A stretch of 64,000 nucleotides of DNA, taken from positions 124,001 to 188,000 of the forward strand of contig SSEL01000032.1 in the NCBI GenBank assembly GCA_008012315.1, read 5' to 3'. How positions within the stretch are numbered: position 1 is the stretch's first letter; each line of letters begins with the position of its first letter. The translations under genes were made by a program, and so were the position numbers. This document shows, piece by piece, positions 1 to 55,237 of the stretch. The notes below the pieces were generated by a model. The model did not search any database, had not been told where the DNA came from, and saw only the letters and a program-made list of their open reading frames with translations. Source of the stretch: Rhodospirillaceae bacterium (GTDB lineage Bacteria; Pseudomonadota; Alphaproteobacteria; Dongiales; Dongiaceae).

Positions 1-2
1 AA

Positions 3-1142
3 GTCGGCCGCGAACGTGCCATGTTCGTGCATCTGACCTTGGTGCCCTGGATTCCGGCGGCCGGCGAGTTGAAGACCAAGCCGACCCAGCATTCCGTCAA
101 GGAACTGCAATCGGTCGGCATCCAGCCGGACATCCTGCTTTGCCGCTGCGATCGTGAAATTCCCGCGGATAGCCGGCGCAAGATTGCGCAGTTCTGCAAT
201 CTCCGTCCGTCAGCCGTGATCCAGGCCTTGGATGTCGACACCATCTATGCGGTGCCGCTGGCCTATCATGCCGAAGGCTATGACCGCGAAGTCTGCCGCC
301 ATTTCGGTATCGATGCGCGCGAACCGGATCTCGGCCGCTGGCAGCAGGTGGCCGATCGCATCCGCTCGCCGGAAGGCGAGGTGACCATCGCCGTGGTCGG
401 GAAATACACCTCGTTGCTCGATGCCTATAAATCATTGGCCGAATCCCTGCGGCATGGCGGCATCGCCAACAATGTGAAGGTCAATCTCAACTGGATCGAT
501 TCCGAGGTCTTCGAGCGCGACGATGCCGTGCAGCATCTGGAAAATGTGCATGGCATCCTGGTGCCAGGCGGTTTCGGCGAGCGCGGATCGGAAGGCAAGA
601 TCGCCTCGGCGCGTTTTGCCCGCGAGCGCAAGATCCCCTATTTCGGCATTTGCTTCGGCATGCAGATGGCGGTGATCGAAGCGGCGCGTCACCTGGCCGG
701 GATCAGCAAGGCCGGATCAACCGAATTCGGTCCCTGCGACGAGCCGGTCGTCGGTCTCATGACCGAATGGGTACGCGGCAATAGCCTGGAGAAGCGGGTG
801 GCCGGCGGTGATCTCGGCGGCACCATGCGGCTCGGCGCCTATGACTGCAATCTGGCGGTAGGAAGCCAGGTCGCGGAGATCTATGGCGCCCAGGCGATCA
901 GCGAACGGCACCGCCATCGCTACGAGGTCAATATCAACTACAAGGATCGGCTGGAGAAGGTAGGCTTGCGGTTCTCGGGCATGTCGCCGGACGGTGTCTT
1001 GCCGGAAATCGTCGAAATCCCCGACCATCCATGGTTCATCGGCGTACAATTCCATCCGGAACTGAAATCGCGTCTGTTCGAGCCGCATCCGTTGTTTTCG
1101 TCATTCATCGCAGCGGCCGTGACACAATCGCGTCTGGTGTAA
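3..1142 (+). CDS. pyrG: CTP synthase, 3' part (5' end outside window)
   Basis: CTP synthase makes CTP from UTP, ATP and glutamine in the cytosol. The open frame runs in from the window edge, so about 380 codons of a family that is usually near 540 residues are present. The visible part has the end of the synthetase domain ([15 protein letters not shown], bases 66-110) and a complete class I glutamine amidotransferase domain: oxyanion region PGGFGERG (about 565), nucleophile Cys in GICFGMQ (codon 651-653) and the C-terminal His-Glu in QFHPE (about 1050). The Cys motif has Phe where most relatives have Leu. kdsA follows after 41 bases, a common alphaproteobacterial order. The identity is clear; only the start is missing. 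Confidence 0.97.
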
Positions 1143-1183
1143 CCAGCGCCGCGAGCGGCACGGTCCATGGGATCAGGCATCAG

Positions 1184-2044
1184 ATGAGCACTATTCGGGT
1201 TGCAAATATCGATATCGCCAATCATGCACCCATGGTGATGATTGGCGGCATGAATGTCCTGGAGGAGCGCGATACGGTCTTCCAGGTGGCGGAAGCTTTT
1301 TGCAAGGCCACGCAGCGCATCGGCATGCCCTATATTTTCAAGGCGTCTTTCGACAAGGCGAACCGTTCGTCGATCCACTCGTTTCGCGGGCCCGGCCTCG
1401 ACGAAGGCTTGAAGCTGCTTGGCGAGGTCAAGTCGCGGTTCGGCGTCTCGATCCTGACCGATGTGCATACACCGGAACAGGCAGCGCCGGCTGCGGAAGT
1501 CTGCGACATCATCCAGGTGCCGGCTTTCCTTGCCCGGCAGACCGATCTGATTGCAGCCATGGCGGCGACGAAAGCGGCGATCAATGTCAAGAAGCCGCAA
1601 TTCATGAGCCCGCCGCAGATCAAGAATATCGTCGAGAAGATCCGCGAAGGCGGCAACGAGCGGATTCTGCTGTGCGAGCGCGGTTCCTGCTTCGGCTACG
1701 ACAATCTGGTCGTCGATATGCTGGGCTTCCGCACCATGAAGGCCGTCAGCGGCGATCTGCCGATCATCTTCGATGCGACGCATGCCTTGCAGATGCGCGA
1801 TCCGGCGGCGGAAAAATCCGGTGGCCGACGGGCCCAGATCGCCGAGCTTGCGCGCGCCGGACTGGCGATCGGCATTGCCGGGCTGTTTATCGAAGCGCAT
1901 CCCGATCCGGACAAGGCGAAGTGCGACGGGCCTTGCGCCTTGCCCCTTGCCAAGTTGCCTGCTTTCCTGGAGCAGATGAAAACCTTGGACGACCTCGTCA
2001 AAAGTTTCCGCCCGCTCGATATCGACGGTACGGGACAGGCTTGA
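1184..2044 (+). CDS. kdsA: 3-deoxy-8-phosphooctulonate synthase
   Basis: Condenses phosphoenolpyruvate with arabinose 5-phosphate to make KDO 8-phosphate, the first committed step to the lipopolysaccharide inner-core sugar, so the host has an LPS outer membrane. At 286 residues from ATG 1184 it matches the family length. The frame is open upstream to 1031, but that part would overlap pyrG and has no family character. Family motifs include [10 protein letters not shown] near the N-terminus, [20 protein letters not shown] and the C-terminal [14 protein letters not shown]. Asn24 in GGMNV corresponds to the Asn of the metal-independent class, where metal-dependent enzymes have Cys; this is inferred from alignment by eye. 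Confidence 0.96.
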
Positions 2045-2148
2045 GTCAAAAGCCGGAGCAGATGGCAGCTAATGCTGCCCGATCGTCATTGCCACGGACA
2101 GCCGAGCGATCCAGAGTCATCGGATGAACATACCGAGGGAGGTATCCG

Positions 2149-2337
2149 ATGGCGCTCGAAATGCGACCGGCTTGCGAGAAATGCGGCGATAGCCTGCCGC
2201 AGGATGGCGAAGCCTATATCTGCTCCTATGAATGCAGCTTCTGCGCCGATTGTACGCAGGAGATGTCGGGCATTTGCCCCAATTGCAGCGGCGAATTGCT
2301 ACGCCGGCCCAAGCGCCAGTTAAAGGCGACGGCTTAA
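2149..2337 (+). CDS. DUF1272 small cysteine-rich protein
   Basis: A 62-residue protein with a zinc-ribbon-like Cys pattern: CEKC near the N-terminus, then CSYECSFCADC, then CPNC, followed by a basic tail. The opening MALEMRP and the ICSYECSFC core match the DUF1272 family, whose function is unknown to me. ATG 2149 has a good ribosome binding site (GGGAGG at about 2138). It sits between kdsA and a membrane protein in the same direction, but the gaps of about 100 bases on each side do not prove an operon. The Cys pairs suggest binding of one or two zinc ions; that is inference. Confidence 0.85.
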   Translation: MALEMRPACEKCGDSLPQDGEAYICSYECSFCADCTQEMSGICPNCSGELLRRPKRQLKATA

Positions 2338-2431
2338 GCTTCACGAATACTTGCTTTACCGATGCGGGACCTGCGATTGACCCGCTTCCTTTCGCCTTCT
2401 ACCCTGGCGGGAAATCGGGCGAGGGGAGCGG

Positions 2432-3697
2432 ATGAGGAAGGCGCAGGAAACCGTTGCGATCAGCAAGTCCATGGCCCGCCAGGCTCCGGGCCTGGTTTTT
2501 TACGTCTGCCAGCGTTTCATCCAGGATTCATGCCCGTCGATCGCGGCGGCGCTGAGCTATAACTCTTTGCTTGCCCTGGTGCCTTTGCTGGCGATCGGTC
2601 TGGCCATGTTTGCCGCTTTTCCGGCTTTCAGCTCCATTCGCGAAGACATGCTGCAGGCGATATTCGACAATCTGGCGCCCTCGATCGGCGACAGCGTCAA
2701 GCAGTATCTGCAGACTTTCGTCGAGAATGCCGGCAAGACAACGGGCGCCGGCGTCGTCGGTCTGGGCGTGACCTCAATCCTGCTGTTCAATACGATCCAG
2801 ACGGCTTTCGACCGTATCTGGGGCGTGACCCGCAGCCGGACCAATCTCAATCGCCTGATCATTTACTGGGCATTGATCACGCTGGGCCCGATCCTGTTCG
2901 GTGCCAGTTTTTCGATTTCCGGCTATGTCTTCGCGACGGTCAAATCCGTTGGGGTTTACGGGATTTCCACGGGGATGCGCGTCTTAAGCACGCTGATGCC
3001 GTTTCTGCTTGAGACCATCGGATTTGCCGTCTTCTTCAGGCTCATCCCGTCGCGCTACGTTCGGCTTGGCGATGCCGTGACCGGCGCCTTCATCACGGCG
3101 CTTCTGTTCGAGATCCTGAAGCAGAGCTTCGCGCTCTATCTCTATTACGTGCCAACCTATCAGGCTGTTTACGGCGCGATCGCCACCTTGCCGGTCTTTC
3201 TGCTCTGGATGTATCTGGTCTGGCTGATCATCCTGGTCGGCGCCGAAATCACGGCGGCCTTGCCGGAATGGCGTGCCGGCCGGCGAAGTGTCGGCGGCAC
3301 CGTCCGGCGATCCGACACCTTTGCCTTGGCCCTGGGCGTCTTGAGAGTCCTGAGGGGGGCGGCGCAACACGGGACGGGCTTGCGCCTGGTGCAATTGCAG
3401 TCCGATCTGCAGGCCGACCCCAATCGGTTGCTGGCAATCCTCGACAATTTGAAAGATGCCAATATCCTGACCCGCGGCGAAAACGACCGCTGGCATATCA
3501 GCCGCGATCTGCGGAGTCTCACCCTGTTCGATCTCTGCCGTCATCTCGGCCTCATCCTCAGCGATCCCTCCGACAGCCCAACCAAACTTGCTCCCTTGGT
3601 GGCGCATCTGAATGAAGCCGAGCGGGGGATGCTCGGCCAATCGGTCGATGACAGTTTGACGTCGCTCGATCGTGGTTCGGGCTCCAAATCGGGATAG
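2432..3697 (+). CDS. YihY/virulence-factor BrkB family inner membrane protein
   Basis: A 421-residue integral membrane protein of the YihY/BrkB family, once mislabelled ribonuclease BN. The N-terminal region has the family signature around SIAAALSYNSLLALVPLLA (residues 36-54), followed by several hydrophobic segments up to about residue 285 (for example LIIYWALITLGPILFGASF and LPVFLLWMYLVWLIILVGAE). The last 130 residues are soluble and look like a winged-helix-type domain (LVQLQSDLQADPNRLLAIL), a C-terminal extension seen in proteobacterial members. The start at ATG 2432 is preceded by GAGGGG. The transport or envelope role of the family is not settled, so I give none. Confidence 0.88.
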   Translation: MRKAQETVAISKSMARQAPGLVFYVCQRFIQDSCPSIAAALSYNSLLALVPLLAIGLAMFAAFPAFSSIREDMLQAIFDNLAPSIGDSVKQYLQTFVENAGKTTGAGVVGLGVTSILLFNTIQTAFDRIWGVTRSRTNLNRLIIYWALITLGPILFGASFSISGYVFATVKSVGVYGISTGMRVLSTLMPFLLETIGFAVFFRLIPSRYVRLGDAVTGAFITALLFEILKQSFALYLYYVPTYQAVYGAIATLPVFLLWMYLVWLIILVGAEITAALPEWRAGRRSVGGTVRRSDTFALALGVLRVLRGAAQHGTGLRLVQLQSDLQADPNRLLAILDNLKDANILTRGENDRWHISRDLRSLTLFDLCRHLGLILSDPSDSPTKLAPLVAHLNEAERGMLGQSVDDSLTSLDRGSGSKSG

Positions 3698-3740
3698 TAG
3701 CGGCCAACCGACCTCGCTATAAAAGTCAGCCTAACCGTAA

Positions 3741-5048
<1,308 letters not shown>

Positions 5049-5132
5049 AAAATCACTCGATCAACACGATTTTACGTGCCCGATTCGCTTTTGAGTTGAC
5101 GCCTGGAATCGAGATGTGATTCCGTATTTTTC

Positions 5133-5486
5133 ATGGATCTACGTCGCGAATTCAGGCGCCGCTCGCGCCAAGTGCTCTGTCAGCTGCTTGGTGCATGCAT
5201 AGCGGGGTATTTTGTCTATCACGCGGTACAAGGCGACCGCGGGGTAATTGCCTGGATTCAAGTCAATCAACGTCTGGCGCAGGCGCAGGCCGATCTCGAT
5301 CGCACCAACGAAGAGCGCGGGGCGCTGGAGCAGCGCGTCGCTCTCTTGAGCAACAGCAGCCTCGATCTCGACATGCTGGAAGAACGGGCCCGGGTGATGC
5401 TCAATTTCAGTCATCCGGATGACCTGGTGATTTTCCTCAATGACCCGGCAAACAAGGCGTCCCAGGCGCCCAAATCAGTAAATTAA
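5133..5486 (+). CDS. ftsB: FtsB/DivIC-family septum formation initiator
   Basis: A 117-residue bitopic membrane protein: a short basic cytosolic N-terminus (RREFRRRSRQ), one transmembrane helix (about residues 13-33), then a coiled coil (about 45-75, LAQAQADLDRTNEERGALEQ) and a short C-terminal tail with DLDMLEERARVMLNF, the typical end of DivIC/FtsB domains. FtsB forms a complex with FtsL and FtsQ in the cell-division machinery. The position right after eno is conserved in many proteobacteria and supports the name. An AT-rich hairpin followed by a T run closes the gene. Confidence 0.88.
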   Translation: MDLRREFRRRSRQVLCQLLGACIAGYFVYHAVQGDRGVIAWIQVNQRLAQAQADLDRTNEERGALEQRVALLSNSSLDLDMLEERARVMLNFSHPDDLVIFLNDPANKASQAPKSVN

Positions 5487-5503
5487 CGCATATCAAGTTA
5501 ATC

Positions 5504-5532
5504 GAAACAAAATCCTTTTGTTTCAGTTTTTT
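5504..5532 (+). terminator. Intrinsic terminator after ftsB
   Basis: A perfect 9-bp inverted repeat (GAAACAAAA / TTTTGTTTC, loop TCC) is followed after two bases by six T residues. The stem has few G-C pairs, so efficiency is uncertain, but the geometry is right and it lies just 18 bases after the ftsB stop and before the pdh promoter. Confidence 0.6.
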
Positions 5533-5540
5533 AACCGTCC

Positions 5541-5568
5541 TTGATTTTACGGTCTACCTACCCATAAT
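5541..5568 (+). promoter_or_regulatory. Probable sigma-70-type promoter of the pdh operon
   Basis: TTGATT (5541-5546) and CATAAT (5563-5568) are separated by 16 bases, each close to the -35 and -10 consensus. Transcription would begin near 5575, leaving a leader of about 115 bases before pdhA. The element sits between the ftsB terminator and the large hairpin at 5572-5618. Confidence 0.55.
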
Positions 5569-5571
5569 ACA

Positions 5572-5618
5572 GATGCAATCGATCGATGGGATGCAAAGTC
5601 CCAGTTCGATCATGCATC
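5572..5618 (+). promoter_or_regulatory. Three-tier hairpin at the 5' end of the pdh leader
   Basis: Three consecutive helices are stacked in one stem: GATGCA (5572-5577) with TGCATC (5613-5618), GATCGA (5581-5586) with TCGATC (5606-5611), and TGGGA (5587-5591) with TCCCA (5599-5603). They close a 7-base loop and have small internal bulges. It overlaps the predicted start of transcription. It may be an mRNA-stabilising 5' stem, an RNA switch, or a palindromic operator in DNA. Confidence 0.5.
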
Positions 5619-5690
5619 TAAAAAGACCGCGTCGATAGACCACCGCAATTCGTTTCGCAGACCACCATCATCATTTCGAAGGGGAGGTTC

Positions 5691-6716
5691 ATGGCAAAGG
5701 CAACTCAAGCTAAGGCCGGTGCAACGCGCGCCGCCCGCGGCAAGGATTCGTCGGCCACCTCGGAAGAGCTCATCGCCTATTATCGTGACATGTTGTTGAT
5801 CCGCCGCTTTGAGGAGAAGGCGGGCCAATTGTATGGCATGGGTCTGATCGGTGGTTTCTGCCATCTCTATATCGGCCAGGAGGCCGTCGTCGTCGGCATG
5901 CAGGCGGTGGCCGAGGAAGGCGACAGCATCATCACCAGCTATCGCGACCACGGCCATATGCTGGCTTGCGGGATGGACCCGAAGGGGGTCATGGCGGAAC
6001 TGACCGGCCGGCGCGGCGGCTATTCCAAGGGCAAGGGCGGCTCGATGCATATGTTCAGCCGCGAAAAGGGTTTCTTCGGCGGCCACGGGATCGTCGGCGC
6101 CCAGGTGCCTCTGGGAACGGGCCTGGCTTTCGGCCATCATTATCGCGGCGACGGGAAGGTTTGCATGACCTATCTCGGCGACGGCGCGGTCAACCAGGGG
6201 CAGGTCTATGAGGCTTTCAATATCGCCTCGCTGTGGAAGCTGCCCGTCGTCTACATCATCGAAAACAACAAATACGCCATGGGCACCAGCCAGCAGCGCT
6301 CCTCAGCCGGCACCGAATTGTGCAAGCGCGGCGTGGCCTATGACATCCCCGGCGTCCAGGTGGACGGAATGGATGTGCTCAAGGTGCGTGAAGCCGGCGA
6401 GATGGCCATCGCCCATGCCCGCGCCGGCAACGGGCCCTACATCCTGGAAATGATGACCTATCGCTATCGCGGCCATTCGATGTCCGATCCGGCCAAGTAT
6501 CGCAGCAAGGAAGAAGTTGCGAAGATGCGCCAGGAACATGATCCGATCGATCATCTGCGGGACCGTCTCCTGACAGGCAACCATACCGATGAAGCTGCCT
6601 TGAAGAGTATCGACAAGGAGATCAAGGAGGTCGTCTCCACCGCCACCGAATTCGCCCAGAGCAGCCAGGAGCCAGATCCGGCCGAGCTCTACACCGATGT
6701 TCTGATCGAGGCCTGA
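5691..6716 (+). CDS. pdhA: Pyruvate dehydrogenase E1 component, alpha subunit
   Basis: Thiamine-diphosphate-dependent decarboxylase subunit of the pyruvate dehydrogenase complex, working as an alpha2beta2 tetramer with PdhB. At 341 residues it has normal length. The thiamine diphosphate motif runs from [15 protein letters not shown] to [27 protein letters not shown] is the C-terminal loop typical of the alpha subunit, and [12 protein letters not shown] and KGGSMHMF are also family-typical. The start ATG 5691 follows the strong ribosome binding site GGGGAGG. The first 20 residues are Ala/Lys/Arg-rich and probably flexible. pdhB follows after 14 bases in the same operon. Confidence 0.97.
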
Positions 6717-6730
6717 GAGGGATACATATC

Positions 6731-8140
6731 ATGGCGATCGATATTTTGATGCCCGCTCTCTCCCCGACCATGACCGAAGGCAAATTGGCCAAATGGCTGA
6801 AATCGCCCGGCGATCAGGTCAAAGCCGGCGACATCCTGGCGGAGATCGAAACCGATAAGGCCACCATGGAAGTGGAGGCCGTGGATGAAGGCGTTCTCGA
6901 CCGCATCCTGGTCGATGCCGGTACCGATAATGTCGCGGTCAATAGCGTGATCGCTGTTCTGCGCGGTGAAGACGAGGCGGCCGGCGCTGAGCCCGCGAAG
7001 AAGACGGATGGTGCTGCGGCGCCAGCACCGCAGGCACAGGCAGAAGCGCAAGAAGCAAAGGCGCCCGAAACAAAAGCGCCGGAACCCAAGCCTGCCGAAC
7101 CGAAAGCAGTTGCGCCGAAGGCGGCACCGATCCCCATGGAAGCGGATTACACAGGGCCGACCGTGACGCAGACGGTTCGCGAAGCCCTGCGGGACGCCAT
7201 GGCGGAGGAAATGCGCCGTGATGAAAACGTCTTCCTGATGGGCGAGGAAGTCGCCGAATATCAAGGGGCCTATAAAGTCAGCCAGGGCCTGCTGGAGGAA
7301 TTCGGCTCGCGCCGTGTCATCGATACGCCGATCACCGAGCATGGCTTTACCGGTATTGGCGTCGGTGCTGCTTTCAGTGGATTGCGCCCGATCGTCGAAT
7401 TCATGACCTTCAACTTCGCCATGCAGGCGATCGACCAGATCATCAATTCGGCGTCCAAGACGCTTTACATGTCCGGCGGCCAGCTCGGCTGCCCGATCGT
7501 CTTCCGCGGCCCCAACGGTGCCGCGGCGCGCGTGGCCGCGCAGCATTCACAATGCTATGCCAGCTGGTATGCCCATTGCCCCGGTCTGAAGGTTGTGGCG
7601 CCCTGGTCCGCGGCGGATGCAAAGGGTCTGTTGAAATCGGCGATCCGCGATCCCAATCCGGTGGTCTTCCTGGAAAACGAGATCATGTATGGCCAGAGTT
7701 TCGAAGTGCCGAGCGATCCCAACTGGATCGTGCCAATCGGCAAGGCCAGGGTCGTGCGCCCGGGCAAGGATGTGACGATCACCGCTTTTTCCCGCATGGT
7801 CAGCGTTGCCTTGACGGCGGCGGAAGATCTGGCGAAGGAAGGCATCGAGGCGGAAGTCATCGATTTGCGGACCATCCGCCCATTGGATGTGGAAACCATC
7901 GTCGCGTCAGTCCAGAAGACCAACCGTTTGGTCACGCTGGAAGAAGGATGGCCTTTCGCCGGTATCGGGTCGGAGCTGTCGGCGGTGATGATGGAAAGCG
8001 CTTTCGATTGGCTGGACGCGCCGGTGGCGCGTGTCGCCGGTATCGACGTTCCCATGCCCTATGCCGCCAATCTGGAAAAGATGGCGCTGCCGCAGCCGCA
8101 AACGGTGGTCGAAGCAGCTAAACGCGTCTGTTATCGCTGA
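6731..8140 (+). CDS. pdhB: Pyruvate dehydrogenase E1 component, beta subunit with N-terminal lipoyl domain
   Basis: E1-beta subunit that completes the active site with PdhA. Residues 1-80 are a biotinyl/lipoyl domain with the lipoylation site [10 protein letters not shown] (Lys43). Residues of about 85-135 are an Ala/Pro/Lys/Glu-rich flexible linker. From about residue 140 a standard E1-beta domain follows ([56 protein letters not shown]). The fused lipoyl domain makes it about 130 residues longer than a plain E1-beta and is known from alphaproteobacteria. The lipoyl domain is closely similar to that of the following pdhC, presumably by duplication. Confidence 0.97.
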
Positions 8141-8169
8141 ACAAGCGGACAATAGGAGGAGGCTATATC

Positions 8170-9498
8170 ATGCCGATCAATATCCTGATGCCCGCTCTGT
8201 CGCCGACGATGACGGAAGGTAATCTGGCCAAATGGTTGAAGAACGAAGGCGATGAGGTCAAGGCCGGCGACGTGATCGCCGAGATCGAGACCGACAAGGC
8301 GACGATGGAAGTCGAAGCGGCCGATGAAGGCCGCATTGGCAAAATCCTGGTGCCGGCCGGCTCCGAAGGCGTCAAGGTGAATGACGTCATCGCCGTTCTG
8401 CTGGAAGAAGGCGAAGACGCCGGCACCATCGGCAAGGATGCACCGGCGCCGAAGCCGGCGGAACAACCGAAGATCGAAGCAAAGCCGGCGGAGCCAAAGG
8501 CCGAAAGCACACCGGCCCCTCAAGCAGCGCCTGCACCGATGCCACCGGCACCCAAGGCGCCGGCAAAAACCGAGAGCGCTGCAAAGGGTGAGCGTATCTT
8601 TGCGAGTCCGCTGGCCCGGCGCATCGCGGCGGAAAAGGGGATCGATCTCGCGGGCATCGCCGGATCGGGGCCGCATGGCCGCATCATCCGGCATGATGTC
8701 GAAGAAGCTGTTGGCAAAGGTGGCGCCGCAAAACCGGCAGCAGGCGCCGCTGCCGGGGCGAAGGCACCGGCCATTCCCGGCACACAGGGTTTCGGCGAAG
8801 GGGCTTTCGATCTCGTTCCGCACACCAATATGCGCAAGACGATCGCGCGGCGCTTGCAGGAATCCAAGCAATTCGTGCCGCATTTCTATCTGACGGTGGA
8901 TTGCGAGATCGATCGCCTGCTGGAACTGCGCGAAGAGATCAATGCGGCATCGCCGGCCGAAGGCGAGGGCGCCTATAAGCTGTCGGTCAACGATTTCTTG
9001 ATCAAGGCCTGCGCTGTTGCCTTGAAGAAAGTGCCGGCCGCCAATGCGTCTTGGAGCGATGACGGCCTCAAGATGTACAAGACGGCGGATATCTCCGTGG
9101 CGGTCGCCATTCCCGGCGGACTTGTGACGCCGATTATCCGCGAGGCCGAAAGCAAAAGCCTGACGGAGATTTCGTCGGAAATGAAGTCCCTGGCGAAGAA
9201 AGCCAAGGACGGCAAGCTGAAACCGGAAGATTACACCGGCGGCAGCTTCTCGCTGTCCAATCTCGGCATGTATGGCATCAAGGAGTTCAGTGCCATCATC
9301 AATCCGCCGCAGGCTTGCATTTTGTCGGTCGGCGCCGGCGAGGAACGCCCCGTTGTTCGCGATGGTAAGATCGCCATTGCGACGGTCATGAGCATCACGC
9401 TATCGGTCGATCACCGGGCCGTGGATGGCGCGCTTGGCGCCGAATATATGGCAGCGTTGAAGCGGTTGATCGAAAAACCGCTCGGCATGCTGGTTTGA
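8170..9498 (+). CDS. pdhC: Dihydrolipoamide acetyltransferase (E2) of pyruvate dehydrogenase
   Basis: Core of the complex; transfers the acetyl group from lipoamide to coenzyme A. 442 residues: lipoyl domain 1-80 (Lys43 in [10 protein letters not shown]), Ala/Pro-rich linker to about 140, peripheral-subunit-binding domain (ASPLARRIAAEKGIDLAGI, then GSGPHGRIIRHDV), a second linker, and the catalytic domain. The catalytic domain ends in SVDHRAVDGALGAEYM, with the active-site His and Asp. The start follows GGAGGA. The two small membrane-anchored genes downstream separate it from lpd, which is unusual for a pdh operon. Confidence 0.97.
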   Translation: MPINILMPALSPTMTEGNLAKWLKNEGDEVKAGDVIAEIETDKATMEVEAADEGRIGKILVPAGSEGVKVNDVIAVLLEEGEDAGTIGKDAPAPKPAEQPKIEAKPAEPKAESTPAPQAAPAPMPPAPKAPAKTESAAKGERIFASPLARRIAAEKGIDLAGIAGSGPHGRIIRHDVEEAVGKGGAAKPAAGAAAGAKAPAIPGTQGFGEGAFDLVPHTNMRKTIARRLQESKQFVPHFYLTVDCEIDRLLELREEINAASPAEGEGAYKLSVNDFLIKACAVALKKVPAANASWSDDGLKMYKTADISVAVAIPGGLVTPIIREAESKSLTEISSEMKSLAKKAKDGKLKPEDYTGGSFSLSNLGMYGIKEFSAIINPPQACILSVGAGEERPVVRDGKIAIATVMSITLSVDHRAVDGALGAEYMAALKRLIEKPLGMLV

Positions 9499-9549
9499 GA
9501 TGACGCTGCGGGGCGTTTCGATTAGGCAAATGTCAGCCGGAGGGCAGCG

Positions 9550-9918
9550 ATGACGCGGCGTGGTTGGACCTTGCTGATCGTCGCGCTCGTCGCCGTCGGC
9601 CTCGTGGCGATTTATCTTTTGTCGATGCAGCGGCAGGCTGCCGTTGATCCTGCGCGCTTCAAGGATGTCTTCGTTGAAAACTGCCTGAAGCAGGCGAATG
9701 ACGCTGCCCAGCAGCAGAACAAGCCGTTCAACGAAGAGCAAAAGCAGATGCTGCAGCAGGTCTGTAATTGCGGCGCGACGCGGAGTTCGTCCGTCTTGAC
9801 GGCGGCCGATCACAACGCCTTCCTGGCCAATCCGGCCGACCCGGCGATGCTCGACAAGATCAAGCCTATCCTTGAGGCCTGTGCCAAGGACCCTCAGGGA
9901 TCGGGTACGGCACCGTGA
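9550..9918 (+). CDS. Small membrane-anchored protein with CxC motif, paralogue of next gene
   Basis: A 122-residue protein of unknown function. Residues 1-25 hold a basic start (MTRRGW) and one hydrophobic helix, so it is probably anchored in the inner membrane with the rest in the periplasm. The soluble part has four Cys: one in VENCLKQ, two in QVCNCGA and one in LEACAKD. The next gene shows the same arrangement, so the two look like diverged copies. ATG 9550 is preceded by GGAGGG. It lies between pdhC and lpd in the same direction and is probably cotranscribed. The paired Cys could bind metal or heme-like ligands or form disulfides; this is inference. Confidence 0.75.
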   Translation: MTRRGWTLLIVALVAVGLVAIYLLSMQRQAAVDPARFKDVFVENCLKQANDAAQQQNKPFNEEQKQMLQQVCNCGATRSSSVLTAADHNAFLANPADPAMLDKIKPILEACAKDPQGSGTAP

Positions 9919-9940
9919 CCGGCTGAGCGGATCTCGGGCG

Positions 9941-10309
9941 ATGCGCAGATTCTTTCTCGTCCTCATAGCAGTCATCGTCGTGACGGCGGCGATCGTCATC
10001 GGCGCGATCATCTGGACGATTGGCCAGCTAGACGATCCGGCGAGCCGCCCCAGCCTGGCCTTCAAGGCGCGTTTTGCCGAAGGTTGCGTGAAGACCGCGA
10101 CGGAAAGCGGGCAGGCGGGTGGCAATCAACTGAGCGATCAACAGCGCAACGACTTGGCATCGGTCTGCGATTGCGCGGCGGAATATGTGCGCCAGGACAT
10201 TGCCGAAACCGGCGTGACTGGCACCTTGCATATGCTGATGATTGAAGGCCCGAAGGCGAAATTGCTGCGCGCCTTGGATAGTTGCCAAACCACCCCTTCT
10301 GCGCCCTGA
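9941..10309 (+). CDS. Small membrane-anchored protein with CxC motif, paralogue of previous gene
   Basis: A 122-residue protein of unknown function, exactly as long as its upstream neighbour. I chose ATG 9941 (MRRFFLVLIAVIVV) because it gives a basic start and a membrane helix (about 3-27); the frame stays open upstream to 9872, but there it would overlap the previous gene. The soluble part repeats the Cys pattern of the neighbour: one in AEGCVKT, two in SVCDCAA and one near the C-terminus in LDSCQT. The phrase LSDQQRNDLASVC matches NEEQKQMLQQVC of the partner. Likely product of a tandem duplication inside the pdh operon. Confidence 0.72.
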   Translation: MRRFFLVLIAVIVVTAAIVIGAIIWTIGQLDDPASRPSLAFKARFAEGCVKTATESGQAGGNQLSDQQRNDLASVCDCAAEYVRQDIAETGVTGTLHMLMIEGPKAKLLRALDSCQTTPSAP

Positions 10310-10355
10310 GGCGCGACGATAGAACCCGCAAGTCTTTGACGGGAAGGAGTTGATG

Positions 10356-11756
10356 ATGAGCGAGAATGCTTTCGATCTGGTTGTCGTCGGTGGTGGCCCC
10401 GGCGGTTATGTCGCCGCCATCCGCAGCGCCCAGCTTGGCTTGAAGACGGCCTTGATCGAGCGTGAGCATCTCGGCGGCATCTGCCTCAACTGGGGCTGTA
10501 TCCCCACCAAGGCGCTGCTGCGGTCTTCGGAGATTGCCCATCTCATTCGGCATGCGGGCGATTATGGGTTCTCGGTTAGCGGCTTTACCATCGATCTGCC
10601 GAAGATCGTCGACCGGTCGCGCAAAGTGGCGGCGCAGCTTTCGGCCGGCGTCAAGCATCTCCTCAAGAAGAACAAGGTGACGGTCTTTGACGGTCATGGC
10701 CGATTGAACGGTGCCAGCAAATTGGTCGTTGAGAAGGACGGCAAGAAGCTGGCGGACCTGACCGCGAAGAACATCATTCTGGCGACCGGCGCCCGCGCGC
10801 GGTCCTTGCCGGGTTTGGAACCCGACGGCAAGCTGGTCTGGACCTATAAGGAAGCCATGGTGCCGAAAGAGATGCCGAAAAAGCTGCTGGTGGTCGGCAG
10901 CGGAGCGATCGGTATCGAATTCGCCAGCTTCTATCGCGGCCTTGGTGTCGAGGTGACGGTGGTCGAGGTGGTCGATCGCATCCTGCCGGTGGAGGATGCG
11001 GAAATCTCCGCCTTCGCCCATAAATCCTTTGAGAAGCAGGGCATGAAGATCATCACCGGCGCCGCAGTGAAGGCGCTGAAGAAAACCGACAATAGTGTGA
11101 CCGCCACGATAGAAAGCGGCGGCAAGTCCCAGGACATTACGGTCGACCGGGTCGTTCTCGCTCTCGGCATCGTCGGCAATGTGGAAAACCTGGGCCTCGA
11201 ATGGACTAAAATCAAAGTCGAGAAAACCCATATCGTGGTGGATGAGTATTGCCGCACCGGCGAGCCCGGCGTTTATGCGATCGGCGACCTGGTCGGCCCG
11301 CCCTGGCTGGCGCATAAGGCCAGCCATGAAGGCGTGATCTGCGTGGAGAAGATCGCCGGGGTCAAGGACGTTCATCCGCTGAATGTCCGCAACATCCCTG
11401 GATGCACCTATTGCTCGCCGCAGATCGCCAGCGTCGGCCTGACCGAACAGGCGGCCAAGGACAAGGGCTATGAGACCAAGATCGGTCGCTTCCCCTTTAT
11501 CGGCAATGGCAAGGCGATCGCCTTGGGCGAGCCGGAAGGCATGGTCAAGACGGTGTTCGACGCCAAGACCGGCGAATTGCTGGGGGCTCATATGATCGGC
11601 GCCGAGGTGACGGAACTGATCCAGGGCTATACAATTGCCAAGACATTGGAGACCACCGAGGCGGAACTGATGCATACCGTCTTCCCGCATCCGACCCTGT
11701 CGGAAATGATGCATGAAGCGGTCTTGGCAGCCTATGGCCGGGCCATCCATTACTGA
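10356..11756 (+). CDS. lpdA: Dihydrolipoamide dehydrogenase (E3)
   Basis: FAD enzyme that reoxidises dihydrolipoamide with NAD+, serving the pyruvate dehydrogenase complex. About 466 residues. Motifs are the FAD-binding [17 protein letters not shown], the redox-active disulfide [13 protein letters not shown], the NAD-binding [20 protein letters not shown] contact [15 protein letters not shown], and the C-terminal catalytic [12 protein letters not shown]. Three start codons lie in a row (TTG 10350, ATG 10353, ATG 10356); the last has the best spacing from GGAAGGAG (10342-10349). The position directly before lipA, in a run with pdhABC, argues that this is the complex-specific E3. Confidence 0.96.
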
Positions 11757-11767
11757 GGAATTCGCGT

Positions 11768-12727
11768 ATGAGCGAGAAGTCAGCAGCAGCCCTGCGACAC
11801 CCGGAAAAGGCCAACCGGCCGGATACGCCGATCCAGCGTAAGCCGGATTGGATCCGGGTCAAGGCGCCGGTCAGCATTGAGTATGCCGAGACCAAGGCGC
11901 TGATGCGGCGGCTCAATCTGAATACCGTCTGCGAGGAAGCGGCCTGCCCGAATATCGGCGAATGCTGGAAGCAGAAACATGCGACGGTAATGATCCTGGG
12001 ATCGGTCTGCACCCGCGCCTGTGCATTCTGCAACGTGGCGACGGGCCGGCCGGATCTGCTCGATCCGCATGAGCCGGCGCATGTTGCCGAGGCGGTCGGG
12101 CAGCTTGGCCTCAATCATATCGTGATCACCTCCGTTGATCGCGACGATCTCGATGACGGTGGCGCCGCCCATTTCGCCGAAACCATCCGGCGGATTCGCG
12201 ATGCCTCGCCTGAGACGACGATCGAAGTTCTCACACCCGATTTCCAGAAGAAGCCGGGTGCGTTGGAAACGGTGATCGATGCACGGCCGGATGTCTTCAA
12301 TCACAACCTGGAAACGGTGCCGCGGCTCTATCGCAATGTGCGCCCGGGTGCGCGTTACTATGCCTCGCTGCGCCTGCTGCAGAAGGCGAAGGACGTCGAT
12401 CCGACGATGTTCACCAAATCCGGCTTGATGGTCGGCTTGGGTGAAAGCTTCGATGAAGTCTGCCAGGTGATGGACGACATGCGCGCCGCCGATGTCGATT
12501 TCCTGACCATCGGCCAATATCTGCAGCCGACCCGCAAGCACCATCCGGTGGACCGCTTCGTACCGCCCGAGGAATTCGACCAGTTGAAGCGCCAGGGGCA
12601 GGGGCGGGGCTTCCTGCTGGTTGCCGCGTCGCCGCTGACGCGCTCGTCACATCATGCGGGTGAGGACTTCAAACAATTGCAGGCTGCGCGTGCCGCTCAG
12701 CAGAAAACGGTTCCGGCGGTGCGATGA
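11768..12727 (+). CDS. lipA: Lipoyl synthase
   Basis: Radical SAM enzyme that inserts two sulfur atoms into protein-bound octanoyl groups to make lipoyl groups, here presumably on PdhB and PdhC. 319 residues. It shows the auxiliary-cluster Cys set [13 protein letters not shown], the radical SAM cluster CTRACAFC, and the C-terminal Ser ligand region. That last motif reads RSSHHA instead of the usual RSSYHA; the Ser ligand is kept. It starts 11 bases after lpd and its stop overlaps the start of ratA by 4 bases (ATGA), so the three are probably translated from one message. Confidence 0.97.
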
Positions 12728-13158
12728 AAGTCCATTCAGAACAGCGCAATCTGCCCTATCGGGCAGAGCAGATGTTCGATCTGGTGGCCGATGTTGGCCG
12801 TTATCCCGAATTCCTGCCCTGGTGTGTCGGCGCCCGCGTCCGGGAAAAGCGCGAAGACCTTGTCGTTGCCGATCTGATGATCGGCTTCAAGATGGTGCGT
12901 GAGCGTTTCACCAGCCGGGTTCATCTCAATCGGCCGGATCTGCGCATCGATGTCGAATATATCGATGGCCCGTTCAAATATCTGAAGAACCATTGGACCT
13001 TCGCCGATATCGGCAACGGACATTGCCGCGTCGACTTCCATCTGGAATTCGAGTTCAGTTCGGCCGTGCTGCAGAAATTGATCGGCGTCCTGTTTCATGA
13101 AGCCGTGCGTCGCATGGTCCATGCATTCGAGATGCGGGCCGCGCAGCTTTACGGATAG
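12724..13158 (+). CDS. ratA: RatA/COQ10-family START-like lipid-binding protein
   Basis: A 144-residue protein of the SRPBCC/START-like fold family that includes yeast Coq10 (ubiquinone binding) and bacterial RatA. Typical phrases are [25 protein letters not shown] at the start (residues 10-34, here in two blocks) and [17 protein letters not shown] at the end. The 4-base overlap with lipA and the pdh neighbourhood favour a respiratory quinone-related role over the toxin role proposed for E. coli RatA. This gene ends the plus-strand run; the next three genes are on the other strand. Confidence 0.88.
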
Positions 13159-13169
13159 GCTGTCTCGAT

Positions 13170-13985
13170 CTATCGCCGCAATTCGAAGAAGACGCGACCT
13201 TCCAGTCTTTCCAGACGATCCGCCTTGTGCCGGAAATCGGCGCGGGTCGTGGCAACGGCACCGATCACGGCATCGAGCGCATCGCCACCGATATTGTCGA
13301 GCAGCTTCTGGCGCAAAGCGCGCCGGGGTGCCGCCAGCAGATCGAGGTCGATCAGGCAATCGAGAATGCGTTGTCGTGCCCGGCGATGCCAGGCCGTGCG
13401 TCCTTTGTAGGATGGATAGCAGTCGAGGTGCTTGAGGCTGCAGGCGGCGCAGACCTCCATGATCGTCGGTTTACCAAGCCGACTCGGCATCTGCGGAATG
13501 ACGATCGCCTTCTTGCCGACGACCAGCGGATGCAGCAGATGCGCCATGCCCCACCAAGCCTGGCGATAGAGCCGCAGGTTATATGAGTTAAACGGCGTTC
13601 CGGCCAATCGGTCGGTCTGGCGCTTGATCTCGATCAGATTGGTGCGCGTGCGATTGAGCAGGCGGTAGGTGTCGTGATCCGGGAACCGAGCCGGGAAGCC
13701 GATGATGAAATCGGTCCAGCGCGTTGCATCGACCAGTTCGGCGGGCAGGCTGAAGGGAAAGTCGCAGCCGGCCACGGTGTGCGGCATCGCGGCAATATGG
13801 CGGGCCAGAGCCGGCAAGGCCAATTGTGGAGAGACGCCTGAATTCGGCAGCTCCATCGCCGGAAAACAGCGATCGATGATCAGTGGTGCATCCTTGGCGG
13901 CAGGATCATGCTGGGCTTCGGCAATCCAGATCTTGCGGCCCGCATCGCTGGCACCGCTGAAATCGATGCCGAGGATGCGCCTCAT
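13170..13985 (-). CDS. DUF429 domain protein (RNase H-like fold)
   Basis: A 271-residue protein that opens with LGIDFSGASDAGRKIWIAE, the characteristic start of DUF429, whose fold is thought to be RNase H-like. Further acidic and aromatic motifs include AGCDFPFSLP and GDALDAVIGAVAT near the C-terminus, where relatives carry conserved Asp residues. The function of the family is not established as far as I know; a nuclease role is only a fold-based guess. Its start overlaps the stop of pncC by 4 bases, so the two are translationally coupled. Confidence 0.82.
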   Translation of the reverse strand: MRRILGIDFSGASDAGRKIWIAEAQHDPAAKDAPLIIDRCFPAMELPNSGVSPQLALPALARHIAAMPHTVAGCDFPFSLPAELVDATRWTDFIIGFPARFPDHDTYRLLNRTRTNLIEIKRQTDRLAGTPFNSYNLRLYRQAWWGMAHLLHPLVVGKKAIVIPQMPSRLGKPTIMEVCAACSLKHLDCYPSYKGRTAWHRRARQRILDCLIDLDLLAAPRRALRQKLLDNIGGDALDAVIGAVATTRADFRHKADRLERLEGRVFFELRR

Positions 13986-14452
13986 TTAGCCGCGTCGGAT
14001 AACAGCTCAAGCGCGCGCACGACGCTTTGCAGCCTGACCTCGTGTCGCCGGCCTTCAAAGACATGGCGCTCGACCTTGGCATGGGGATCGCCTTGCTTGG
14101 CGATGCCGAGATAGACGAGGCCGACCGGCTTCTCCGCCGATCCACCGCCGGGACCGGCGATCCCGGTGACGGCGACGGCTACCTGCGCCCTCGACCGGGC
14201 AACGGCGCCCAGGGCCATCGCCGCCGCGACCGGATCGCTGACGGCACCATATTGCTCGATCAGTGCCGCCGGCACGCCCAGCAGATCGGCTTTCGCTTCA
14301 TTCGAATAAGTGACGAAGCCACGATCAACCACATCCGAGGAGCCGGCGATTTCCGTCAGTGTCGCGGCAATCAGGCCGCCGGTGCAGGATTCCGCCGTTG
14401 CGATCATCCAGCCACGCTGGCGGTAAAGGTCCAACAGGGCCGGAATATCCAT
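13982..14452 (-). CDS. pncC: Nicotinamide-nucleotide amidase, CinA C-terminal domain protein
   Basis: A stand-alone CinA C-terminal domain (156 residues) that deamidates NMN to NaMN in pyridine nucleotide recycling. Signature motifs are TAESCTGGLIAATLTEIAGSS (catalytic Ser/Thr region, residues 19-39), RGFVTYSNEAKADLLGV, and the loop VTGIAGPGGGSAEKPVG. There is no N-terminal COG1058 domain, as in many proteobacteria. It lies downstream of ispDF in the same direction and overlaps the DUF429 gene by 4 bases. Confidence 0.93.
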   Translation of the reverse strand: MDIPALLDLYRQRGWMIATAESCTGGLIAATLTEIAGSSDVVDRGFVTYSNEAKADLLGVPAALIEQYGAVSDPVAAAMALGAVARSRAQVAVAVTGIAGPGGGSAEKPVGLVYLGIAKQGDPHAKVERHVFEGRRHEVRLQSVVRALELLSDAAK

Positions 14453-34908: not shown

Positions 34909-34980
34909 AAGCGTCTCGTCACGAGACGTTTCATACGGGCGAAGCGGGAAGCATTCCAGGATTGCGATGCTCCCGCTTCG
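34909..34980 (+). promoter_or_regulatory. Two stem-loops between pstS and pstC
   Basis: First hairpin: AAGCGTCTCG (34909-34918) with CGAGACGTTT (34922-34931), loop TCA, one G-U pair. Second: CGAAGCGGG plus AGCAT (34940-34954) with ATGCT plus CCCGCTTCG (34967-34980), one bulged A. No T run follows, so partial termination or protection of the pstS mRNA end is more likely than full termination. Confidence 0.5.
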
Positions 34981-35006
34981 TCGCATGATGTCGGAAAGCA
35001 ATATTC

Positions 35007-51481: not shown

Positions 51482-52008
51482 TCAGGGTGCGCGTCGGCTC
51501 GTCATCGGCGGTGCCAGGGATGCCGATGCCAAGCCCCCCTCCACTCCCACCACGCCACCTCCACCGCCACGAGACGTCTCGTTTGCGCCTTTGCGCCCGC
51601 CGGTGCCGGACGGCCGCGCCGGCCCCTGCATGGGGATTGCGAGATCGCCCGGTATGGGGCGAGGTCGAGCGCCTGGCGGATAAAATTGCGCAGGGAAATG
51701 ACCAACTCTCCGGTATGAATCGGACCGCCCGCGACCAGTTCGGTCACGGCACGGCTGGCAAGTCGCACCTGCTCCTCTGTGCCGAGCAGGATGACATCCG
51801 ACAAGGCCGTCTCCACGGCATCGAGGATGCGGCGCAGGCGGTCTGAGGTCGGCAGGCTATCCGAGATTGGCAAGCTATTCGAGATCGGGGGGCCGATTGG
51901 CTCGTCCTCCCCGTCTTCCGCGTCGGATTGGCTGCGTTGACGCAACTCTTTCAAATGGGTCGGATCGACGCTCAGCGTACCGGTGAACGAATAGCCGAAC
52001 TTGCCGAT
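51482..52008 (-). pseudogene. Unknown gene, apparently frameshifted
   Basis: The minus-strand frame from about 52008 to 51657 reads like protein: GKFGYSFTGTLSVDPTHL, a repeat-rich linker, then RRILDAVETALSDVILLG and ELVAGGPIHTGELVISLR up to ALDLAP. After that the frame becomes Arg/Trp-rich and unlikely. A one-base shift at the four-base run 51656-51659 continues as IPGDLAIPMQGPARPSGTGG to a stop at 51482, with a Gly-rich tail. No ATG lies at the 5' end; the best ribosome binding site (AAAGGGGGA) is 6 bases before an ATC codon at 52008. So this may be a broken gene or a sequencing error; the family is not recognised. Confidence 0.4.
51851..51886. repeat. Two tandem 18-bp units
   Basis: Two adjacent 18-base units match at 15 of 18 positions and lie in frame in the linker of the unknown gene, where they code for repeated S-x-S-L-P on the minus strand. 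A partial third unit (GAGGTC) precedes them. Confidence 0.6.
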
Positions 52009-52039
52009 CGGGGCTCCCCCTTTGCAAGTTCGGCCTATT
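51990..52039 (-). terminator. Strong stem-loop downstream of the MFS gene
   Basis: GCCGAACTTGC (51994-52004) pairs perfectly with GCAAGTTCGGC (52024-52034); AATAG and CTATT extend the stem with one bulged base, and GGGG/CCCC forms a small inner helix. It lies 93 bases after the stop of the minus-strand MFS gene. There is no clean T run, so termination is only one possibility. Confidence 0.4.
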
Positions 52040-52131
52040 GGATGAGCGCCGGATGAATGTGAGCGTGCGGGCCTGCGTTGTCGCACCGTGGCGTTGGGGG
52101 GACTGGCTTGAACCTATCGATTCTTCCTGTC

Positions 52132-55048: not shown

Positions 55049-55228
55049 TTGTCCCGGGTGGCGATCGGCGGCGTCGGGACGCTGCTGGTCGTCATTGCCT
55101 GGATGTGCCTTTTCCCCGATCTGTTCCGGCGCGATACCCTGCTCCACGAAGCGCCGCACGCCGCCTCTGCCACGGCGGATGTCACGGTGAAGGAAGGGAG
55201 CCGCAGCGTTCCGACTGCGGCTCCCTGA
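55049..55228 (+). CDS. Small single-helix membrane protein
   Basis: A 59-residue frame from TTG 55049 (GTG 55058 also possible) with one clear hydrophobic helix, VAIGGVGTLLVVIAWMCLF, flanked by basic residues and followed by a short polar tail (RRDTLLHEAPHAASATADVT). No ribosome binding site is evident, so translation may depend on coupling to the OmpA-like gene that ends 10 bases upstream. The last 30 bases overlap a perfect hairpin. Not recognised; the helix profile and spacing support a real product, but weakly. Confidence 0.4.
   Translation: MSRVAIGGVGTLLVVIAWMCLFPDLFRRDTLLHEAPHAASATADVTVKEGSRSVPTAAP
55196..55225. terminator. Hairpin between the small membrane ORF and the permease
   Basis: A perfect 11-bp stem GGGAGCCGCAG / CTGCGGCTCCC with an 8-base loop lies between two converging genes. 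On the minus strand it is followed by TTCCTTC, a weak U tract, so it may end the permease message. Confidence 0.5.
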
Positions 55229-55237
55229 CAAGCCTGC

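Follow-up and report, generated by a model that had tools for sequence, protein, structure and literature searches.

We lean towards the view that, across much of the Alphaproteobacteria, a transcription factor not yet named controls the pyruvate dehydrogenase (pdh) operon; it would act at a nearly single-copy operator, TTAACYGAANTTCRGTTAA, located roughly 80 to 95 bp upstream of the transcription start and accompanied in some lineages by a PhaR box at fixed spacing. The lineage of the window, by which we mean the whole 64-kb stretch of DNA analysed here, would additionally have gained a stem-loop embedded in the start region. Pyruvate dehydrogenase catalyzes the step between glycolysis and the TCA cycle. 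The source genome (5.72 Mb, 93 contigs) is the sole representative of its genus in the comparison; the nearest relatives of its pdhA that were compared belong to other genera and share around 80% protein identity, and a match to pdhA, either orthologue or paralogue, was found in 56 of 61 genomes. According to the list of open reading frames, the order of genes is presumably pyrG, kdsA, a membrane-protein gene, eno, an ftsB-like gene, pdhA, pdhB, pdhC, two small genes, lpd and lipA, and the gene we take to be pdhB contains a lipoyl domain. The features of the upstream region are:

5133 to 5486, forward strand: open reading frame of an ftsB-like gene (117 amino acids), upstream of pdhA.
5483 to 5501, no strand assigned: palindrome TTAAC-N9-GTTAA (19 bp), proposed operator, overlapping the stop codon of the ftsB-like gene.
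5504 to 5524, no strand assigned: perfect 9-bp inverted repeat GAAACAAAA-TCC-TTTTGTTTC.
5541 to 5546, forward strand: -35 element TTGATT, read from the sequence.
5563 to 5568, forward strand: -10 element CATAAT, read from the sequence.
5691 to 6716, forward strand: open reading frame of pdhA, presumably pyruvate dehydrogenase E1 alpha (341 amino acids), followed by pdhB- and pdhC-like genes.

The palindrome, which is AT-rich and whose centre at position 5492 lies about 83 bp before the predicted start, was noticed by reading the oriented upstream regions of loci L002 to L031. It was counted, allowing up to one mismatch, in the 350 bp preceding the pdhA match in 107 distinct alphaproteobacterial loci, 30 of which come from whole genomes and 77 from named records; the named records were the best 80 among the matches listed and the loci are related, so that the count is neither a census nor a series of independent observations. 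The duplicates L034, L040 and L107 (identical to L004, L010 and L026, respectively, the last pair lacking the site) were left out, as was the family genome G012, which is 68% complete and in which no pdhA orthologue was found. The motif is present in 56 of the 107 loci, 36 times without a mismatch. Within the family, 15 of 16 loci carry it, all of them exactly, and outside the family it is found in 41 of 91 loci (21 exact), 37 of these 41 being named records that had not been read before the test. Controls scored far lower: in a set of 108 loci, which includes one duplicate, each of 29 other anagrams of the arm was found in at most four loci, and each other spacer length from 3 to 15 in at most eight loci at one mismatch and in none exactly, while letter shuffles predict 0.9 loci out of 110. 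The consensus TTAACYGAANTTCRGTTAA was derived by columns from 58 loci, two of which are duplicates. Bearers of the palindrome at pdhA include Dongia, Azospirillum (three loci with exact sites), Magnetospirillum, Telmatospirillum, Ferrovibrio, Belnapia, Bosea, SAR116 and others; even at two mismatches, it was found in none of the 11 loci titled Methylobacterium and none of the four titled Rhodobacteraceae. The palindrome seems to go with pdhA rather than with ftsB, as it is also found where, judged by eye, other genes sit directly upstream (for instance in L017, L029, L061 and L065; the crude pattern used to recognise ftsB misses some real ftsB genes). A helical phasing between the palindrome and the -35 element was considered as well: CTTG is found at an offset of 56 to 60 in 15 and of 65 to 67 in 13 of the 56 loci, which is not a clean step of 10.5 bp, and no claim of phasing is therefore made.

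The genome of the window contains exact TTAAC-N9-GTTAA only once, at pdhA, and the 12 further places with one mismatch look like background, since a reversed control pattern yields 102. A stricter 21-base form, searched at up to one mismatch, matches 17 places across the family's 17 genomes, and 11 of these places lie at pdhA; this form misses the pdhA site of G011, G014, G015 and G016, whose 19-base core is exact, and has no match in G005, which lacks a site at pdhA, or in G012. Of 44 genomes outside the family, four have it at pdhA (G017, G045, G049 and G058), and the other matches lie elsewhere, several of them in genomes in which the control pattern matches too. The six family places away from pdhA, five with one mismatch and one, in G015, an exact 21-base match, share no common gene among the open reading frames inspected by eye, and no regulator was recognised there. 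The simplest reading of the palindrome is a largely pdh-dedicated operator to which a protein would bind, and it probably represents the operator of a pdh regulator.

The identity of such a regulator was approached through the known systems. In the Gammaproteobacteria, the pdh operon is controlled by PdhR, which recognises the motif TTGGTnnnACCAA. The operator proposed here likewise serves a pyruvate dehydrogenase operon; however, it differs in its motif. The search for a PdhR-like motif suggested by the initial annotation gave none near pdhA: at up to two mismatches, this motif has nine matches in the window compared to 12.7 expected, and the nearest one, at 5296 to 5308, is inside the ftsB-like gene. 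The palindrome is not PdhR-like, and no such motif lies in the hairpin described below. One study lists PdhR as a GntR regulator with the table entry '55 (6)', which we read as 55 genomes in six groups (PMC5343134). No regulator gene was recognised by eye beside the pdh operon among the open reading frames of positions 1 to 14000. In open-licence PMC text, where sequences written with spaces or placed in figures would be missed, no pdh regulator owning the palindrome motif was found. In mycobacteria, the TetR regulator BkaR serves branched-chain keto-acid genes through an AT-rich palindrome with GTTAA/TTAAC words (PMC3920632); the core given there, GTTA-N-T-N4-A-N-TAAC, has its arms in the opposite order to TTAAC-N9-GTTAA, and BkaR was therefore rejected as the identity of the site. 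PhaR of Sinorhizobium meliloti is reported to affect pdh proteins positively and to have the motif core YGCRNYGCR (PMC12542648). A PhaR-like box, TGCRnTGCR, lies at an offset of 28 to 29 from the start of the palindrome in eight of the 56 site-bearing loci and at 58 or 64 in three more, and a phaR gene is present in 42 of the 61 genomes, that of the window among them. Some relatives carry a box like that of PhaR (AniA) beside the palindrome, whereas the window (L002) has no TGCRnTGCR within 80 bp of the palindrome start and contains, approximately where the eight relatives have theirs, the 9-bp inverted repeat at 5504 to 5524, which is one of four perfect 9-bp repeats with a spacer of 1 to 5 in the window. 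A further conserved word, similar to CCAGTCAGGGG, lies immediately ahead of the pdhA start, where it overlaps the ribosome-binding site; 10 of 108 loci carry it (L003 to L005, L007 to L011, L013 and L014), all belonging to two genera of the family, and it is absent from the window.

Downstream of the palindrome, the initial annotation had described a good promoter, TTGATT and CATAAT separated by 16 nt, placed directly before a hairpin. A consensus scan recovers this pair, but matches of this kind occur at chance level between 4500 and 10000 (two found, 2.0 expected), and it is the alignment of the family that supports the promoter: TTG occupies the -35 columns in all 16 loci and NATAAT the -10 columns in 10 of them, the -10 elements of the remaining six having been assigned by eye. 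We take the promoter to be genuine and of the housekeeping type. Because of its position, transcription is predicted to start at 5573 to 5577, inside the 5' arm of the hairpin; the commonest spacing of around 7 nt after the -10 element corresponds to G5575. Two further features belong to this part of the operon:

5571 to 5619, forward strand: three-tier hairpin within the stretch of the pdh operon predicted to be transcribed first, defined by folding, shuffles and a window scan.
5573 to 5638, forward strand: 21-codon open reading frame running through the hairpin (MQSIDGMQSPSSIMHLKRPRR), probably fortuitous.

The hairpin had been described as three stacked helices of 6, 6 and 5 bp with a 7-base loop, as part of a feature spanning 5541 to 5618. 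The three tiers were recovered, as were the place of promoter and hairpin, helix 2 (5581-5586/5606-5611, 6 bp) and helix 3 (5587-5591/5599-5603, 5 bp); helix 1, however, comprises 7 bp (5571-5577/5613-5619), which moves the end of the hairpin to 5619. The loop has 7 nt as described, or 5 nt if the pair U5592-G5598, which the minimum free energy (MFE) structure adds to helix 3, is counted. The interruptions between the helices are asymmetric (AUC/A and a GU bulge), and the arms of all three tiers are centred on about the same point, 5595-5596. Folded as RNA, the hairpin has an MFE of -25.1 kcal/mol over 53 nt (z -5.66), and none of 200 shuffles was as stable. For the whole 121-nt pdhA leader, which is moderately more stable than its shuffles, the z value is -2.54 and two of 200 shuffles reached its stability. 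In a scan of the window in 53-nt windows with a step of three bases on both strands (21,316 start positions), the hairpin ranked first by GC-corrected energy, and among the 40 best folds it took third place in shuffle z; it therefore exceeds chance in 64 kb, though it is not alone of its kind. Other very stable local folds were located at 34933 to 34985 (forward strand), 51991 to 52043 (reverse strand) and 55183 to 55235 (forward strand), with z values of -4.3, -6.3 and -6.8, respectively. With the predicted start inside the 5' arm, the basal helix is probably transcribed only in part: a transcript beginning at G5575 would retain three of the seven pairs of helix 1, and one beginning at 5571 all seven. 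Each start from 5569 to 5580 would leave a stable fold up to position 5640 (-26.7 to -19.0 kcal/mol).

A lack of conservation of the stem in close relatives had been named beforehand as grounds for refutation, and at the level of the family this is what was found: the stem is absent from the 16 other family genomes and from the 15 other family pdhA leaders. In a DNA search of 17 family genomes including its own, which are identical to the genome set at the level of the order, the hairpin matched itself alone at E <= 0.05, and at E <= 10 only scraps of 14 to 26 nt were found besides, those in its own genome being 14 to 16 nt long. Viral contigs contained no exact 22-mer of the hairpin, and plasmids were likewise without a match. 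Since only the hairpin itself was matched in these collections, a mobile or interspersed repeat was rejected as its nature. In the other 15 leaders of the family, no comparable hairpin directly follows the -10 element, the z values of the first 60 nt after it ranging from -4.0 to +1.6 as opposed to -5.9 in the window. Over whole leaders, the lowest z values are -6.45 in the window, -5.43 in L009, -3.84 in L010, -3.1 in L015 and -2.91 in L007, followed by -2.78 or weaker in the other eleven. The value of L009 stems from an unrelated strong hairpin 54 nt into its 131-nt leader, suggesting that strong hairpins may be gained and lost in leaders without significance. Since L007 and L009 have leaders of no lesser length (127 and 131 nt), an origin of the hairpin by insertion, deduced from leader length, was dropped. 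Within the genomes compared, which include a single one for its own genus, the hairpin is lineage-specific; missing conservation does not prove missing function, given that the relatives compared belong to other genera.

What the hairpin does, if anything, can be answered tentatively, and we put slightly less than even confidence in a lineage-specific 5'-proximal stem-loop that exerts a 5'-end effect on the pdh mRNA, presumably protection. RNA polymerase would start at around 5573 to 5577, just downstream of the housekeeping-type promoter, and the message would open at the beginning of the 5' arm or a few bases into it, its 5' terminus carrying helices 2 and 3 together with a truncated helix 1. 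The likeliest effect, if any, would be passive, with a paired 5' end slowing 5'-end-dependent decay, of the type carried out by RppH and RNase E, of a heavily used mRNA. The stem-loop would resemble the 5'-terminal stabilising stem-loops of the E. coli ompA type: it precedes a housekeeping gene, has no terminator and lies at the predicted 5' end of the mRNA or a few bases from it. In contrast to these, it would lose some of its basal helix if transcription starts where predicted, and the compared family leaders have no counterpart.

Without conservation, the hairpin may also be neutral, and a palindrome that arose by local duplication or template-switch, with no selected function and an accidental place at the start, is a possibility that we take seriously while holding it to be improbable on the whole. 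The words GATGCAA and TCGATC are each present twice inside the hairpin, by eye, no part of the family alignment varies more than the leader, and the other 15 leaders lack a counterpart, all of which speaks for this reading; however, the hairpin is the strongest GC-corrected fold of the 64-kb window and lies exactly at the predicted start region. It is unlikely that the inverted repeat is bound as a DNA duplex by a repressor blocking promoter clearance. Repressor sites are usual right after the -10 element and the shared centre of the three arm pairs would suit such an operator, but its span of 49 bp and its asymmetric internal loops would not, and the hairpin, unlike the promoter, is missing from every other genome of the family. 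The suggestion that it is a site for a pyruvate-sensing regulator is likewise unsupported, as no PdhR-like site lies near it and a conserved candidate operator already exists upstream. A regulator site at the pdh promoter probably exists as the initial annotation supposed, its place being the palindrome at 5483 to 5501 instead of the hairpin. Very improbable, finally, is a ligand- or translation-controlled RNA switch or attenuator: its tiered stem, asymmetric bulges and the open reading frame running through it, which could be leaderless, would fit, but a frame of 21 codons is unremarkable, no alternative pairing was shown, and searches of Rfam with the whole window and with 5450 to 5720 gave no match at gathering score over the hairpin region (at E <= 5, the only hits were two snoRNA models on the opposite strand, which scored well under their cut-offs). 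Furthermore, no T-run follows the stem (the adjoining sequence is AAAAAGACC) and the hairpin is not among the listed terminators; lacking the T-run, it is not an intrinsic terminator. With its absence from the 16 other family genomes, the proposed switch found no support, and the hairpin is not an ancestral metabolite switch.

It is the TTAAC-N9-GTTAA palindrome that would more likely be the regulated input of the pdh operon, and that is more likely than the hairpin to act as its control switch. The stem-loop, which allows the role of a lineage-specific 5'-end stem to be tested on an mRNA of central metabolism, matters less than the palindrome, which, as a conserved and nearly pdh-specific site, offers a direct handle, a single 21-bp site, for finding the alphaproteobacterial pdh regulator.
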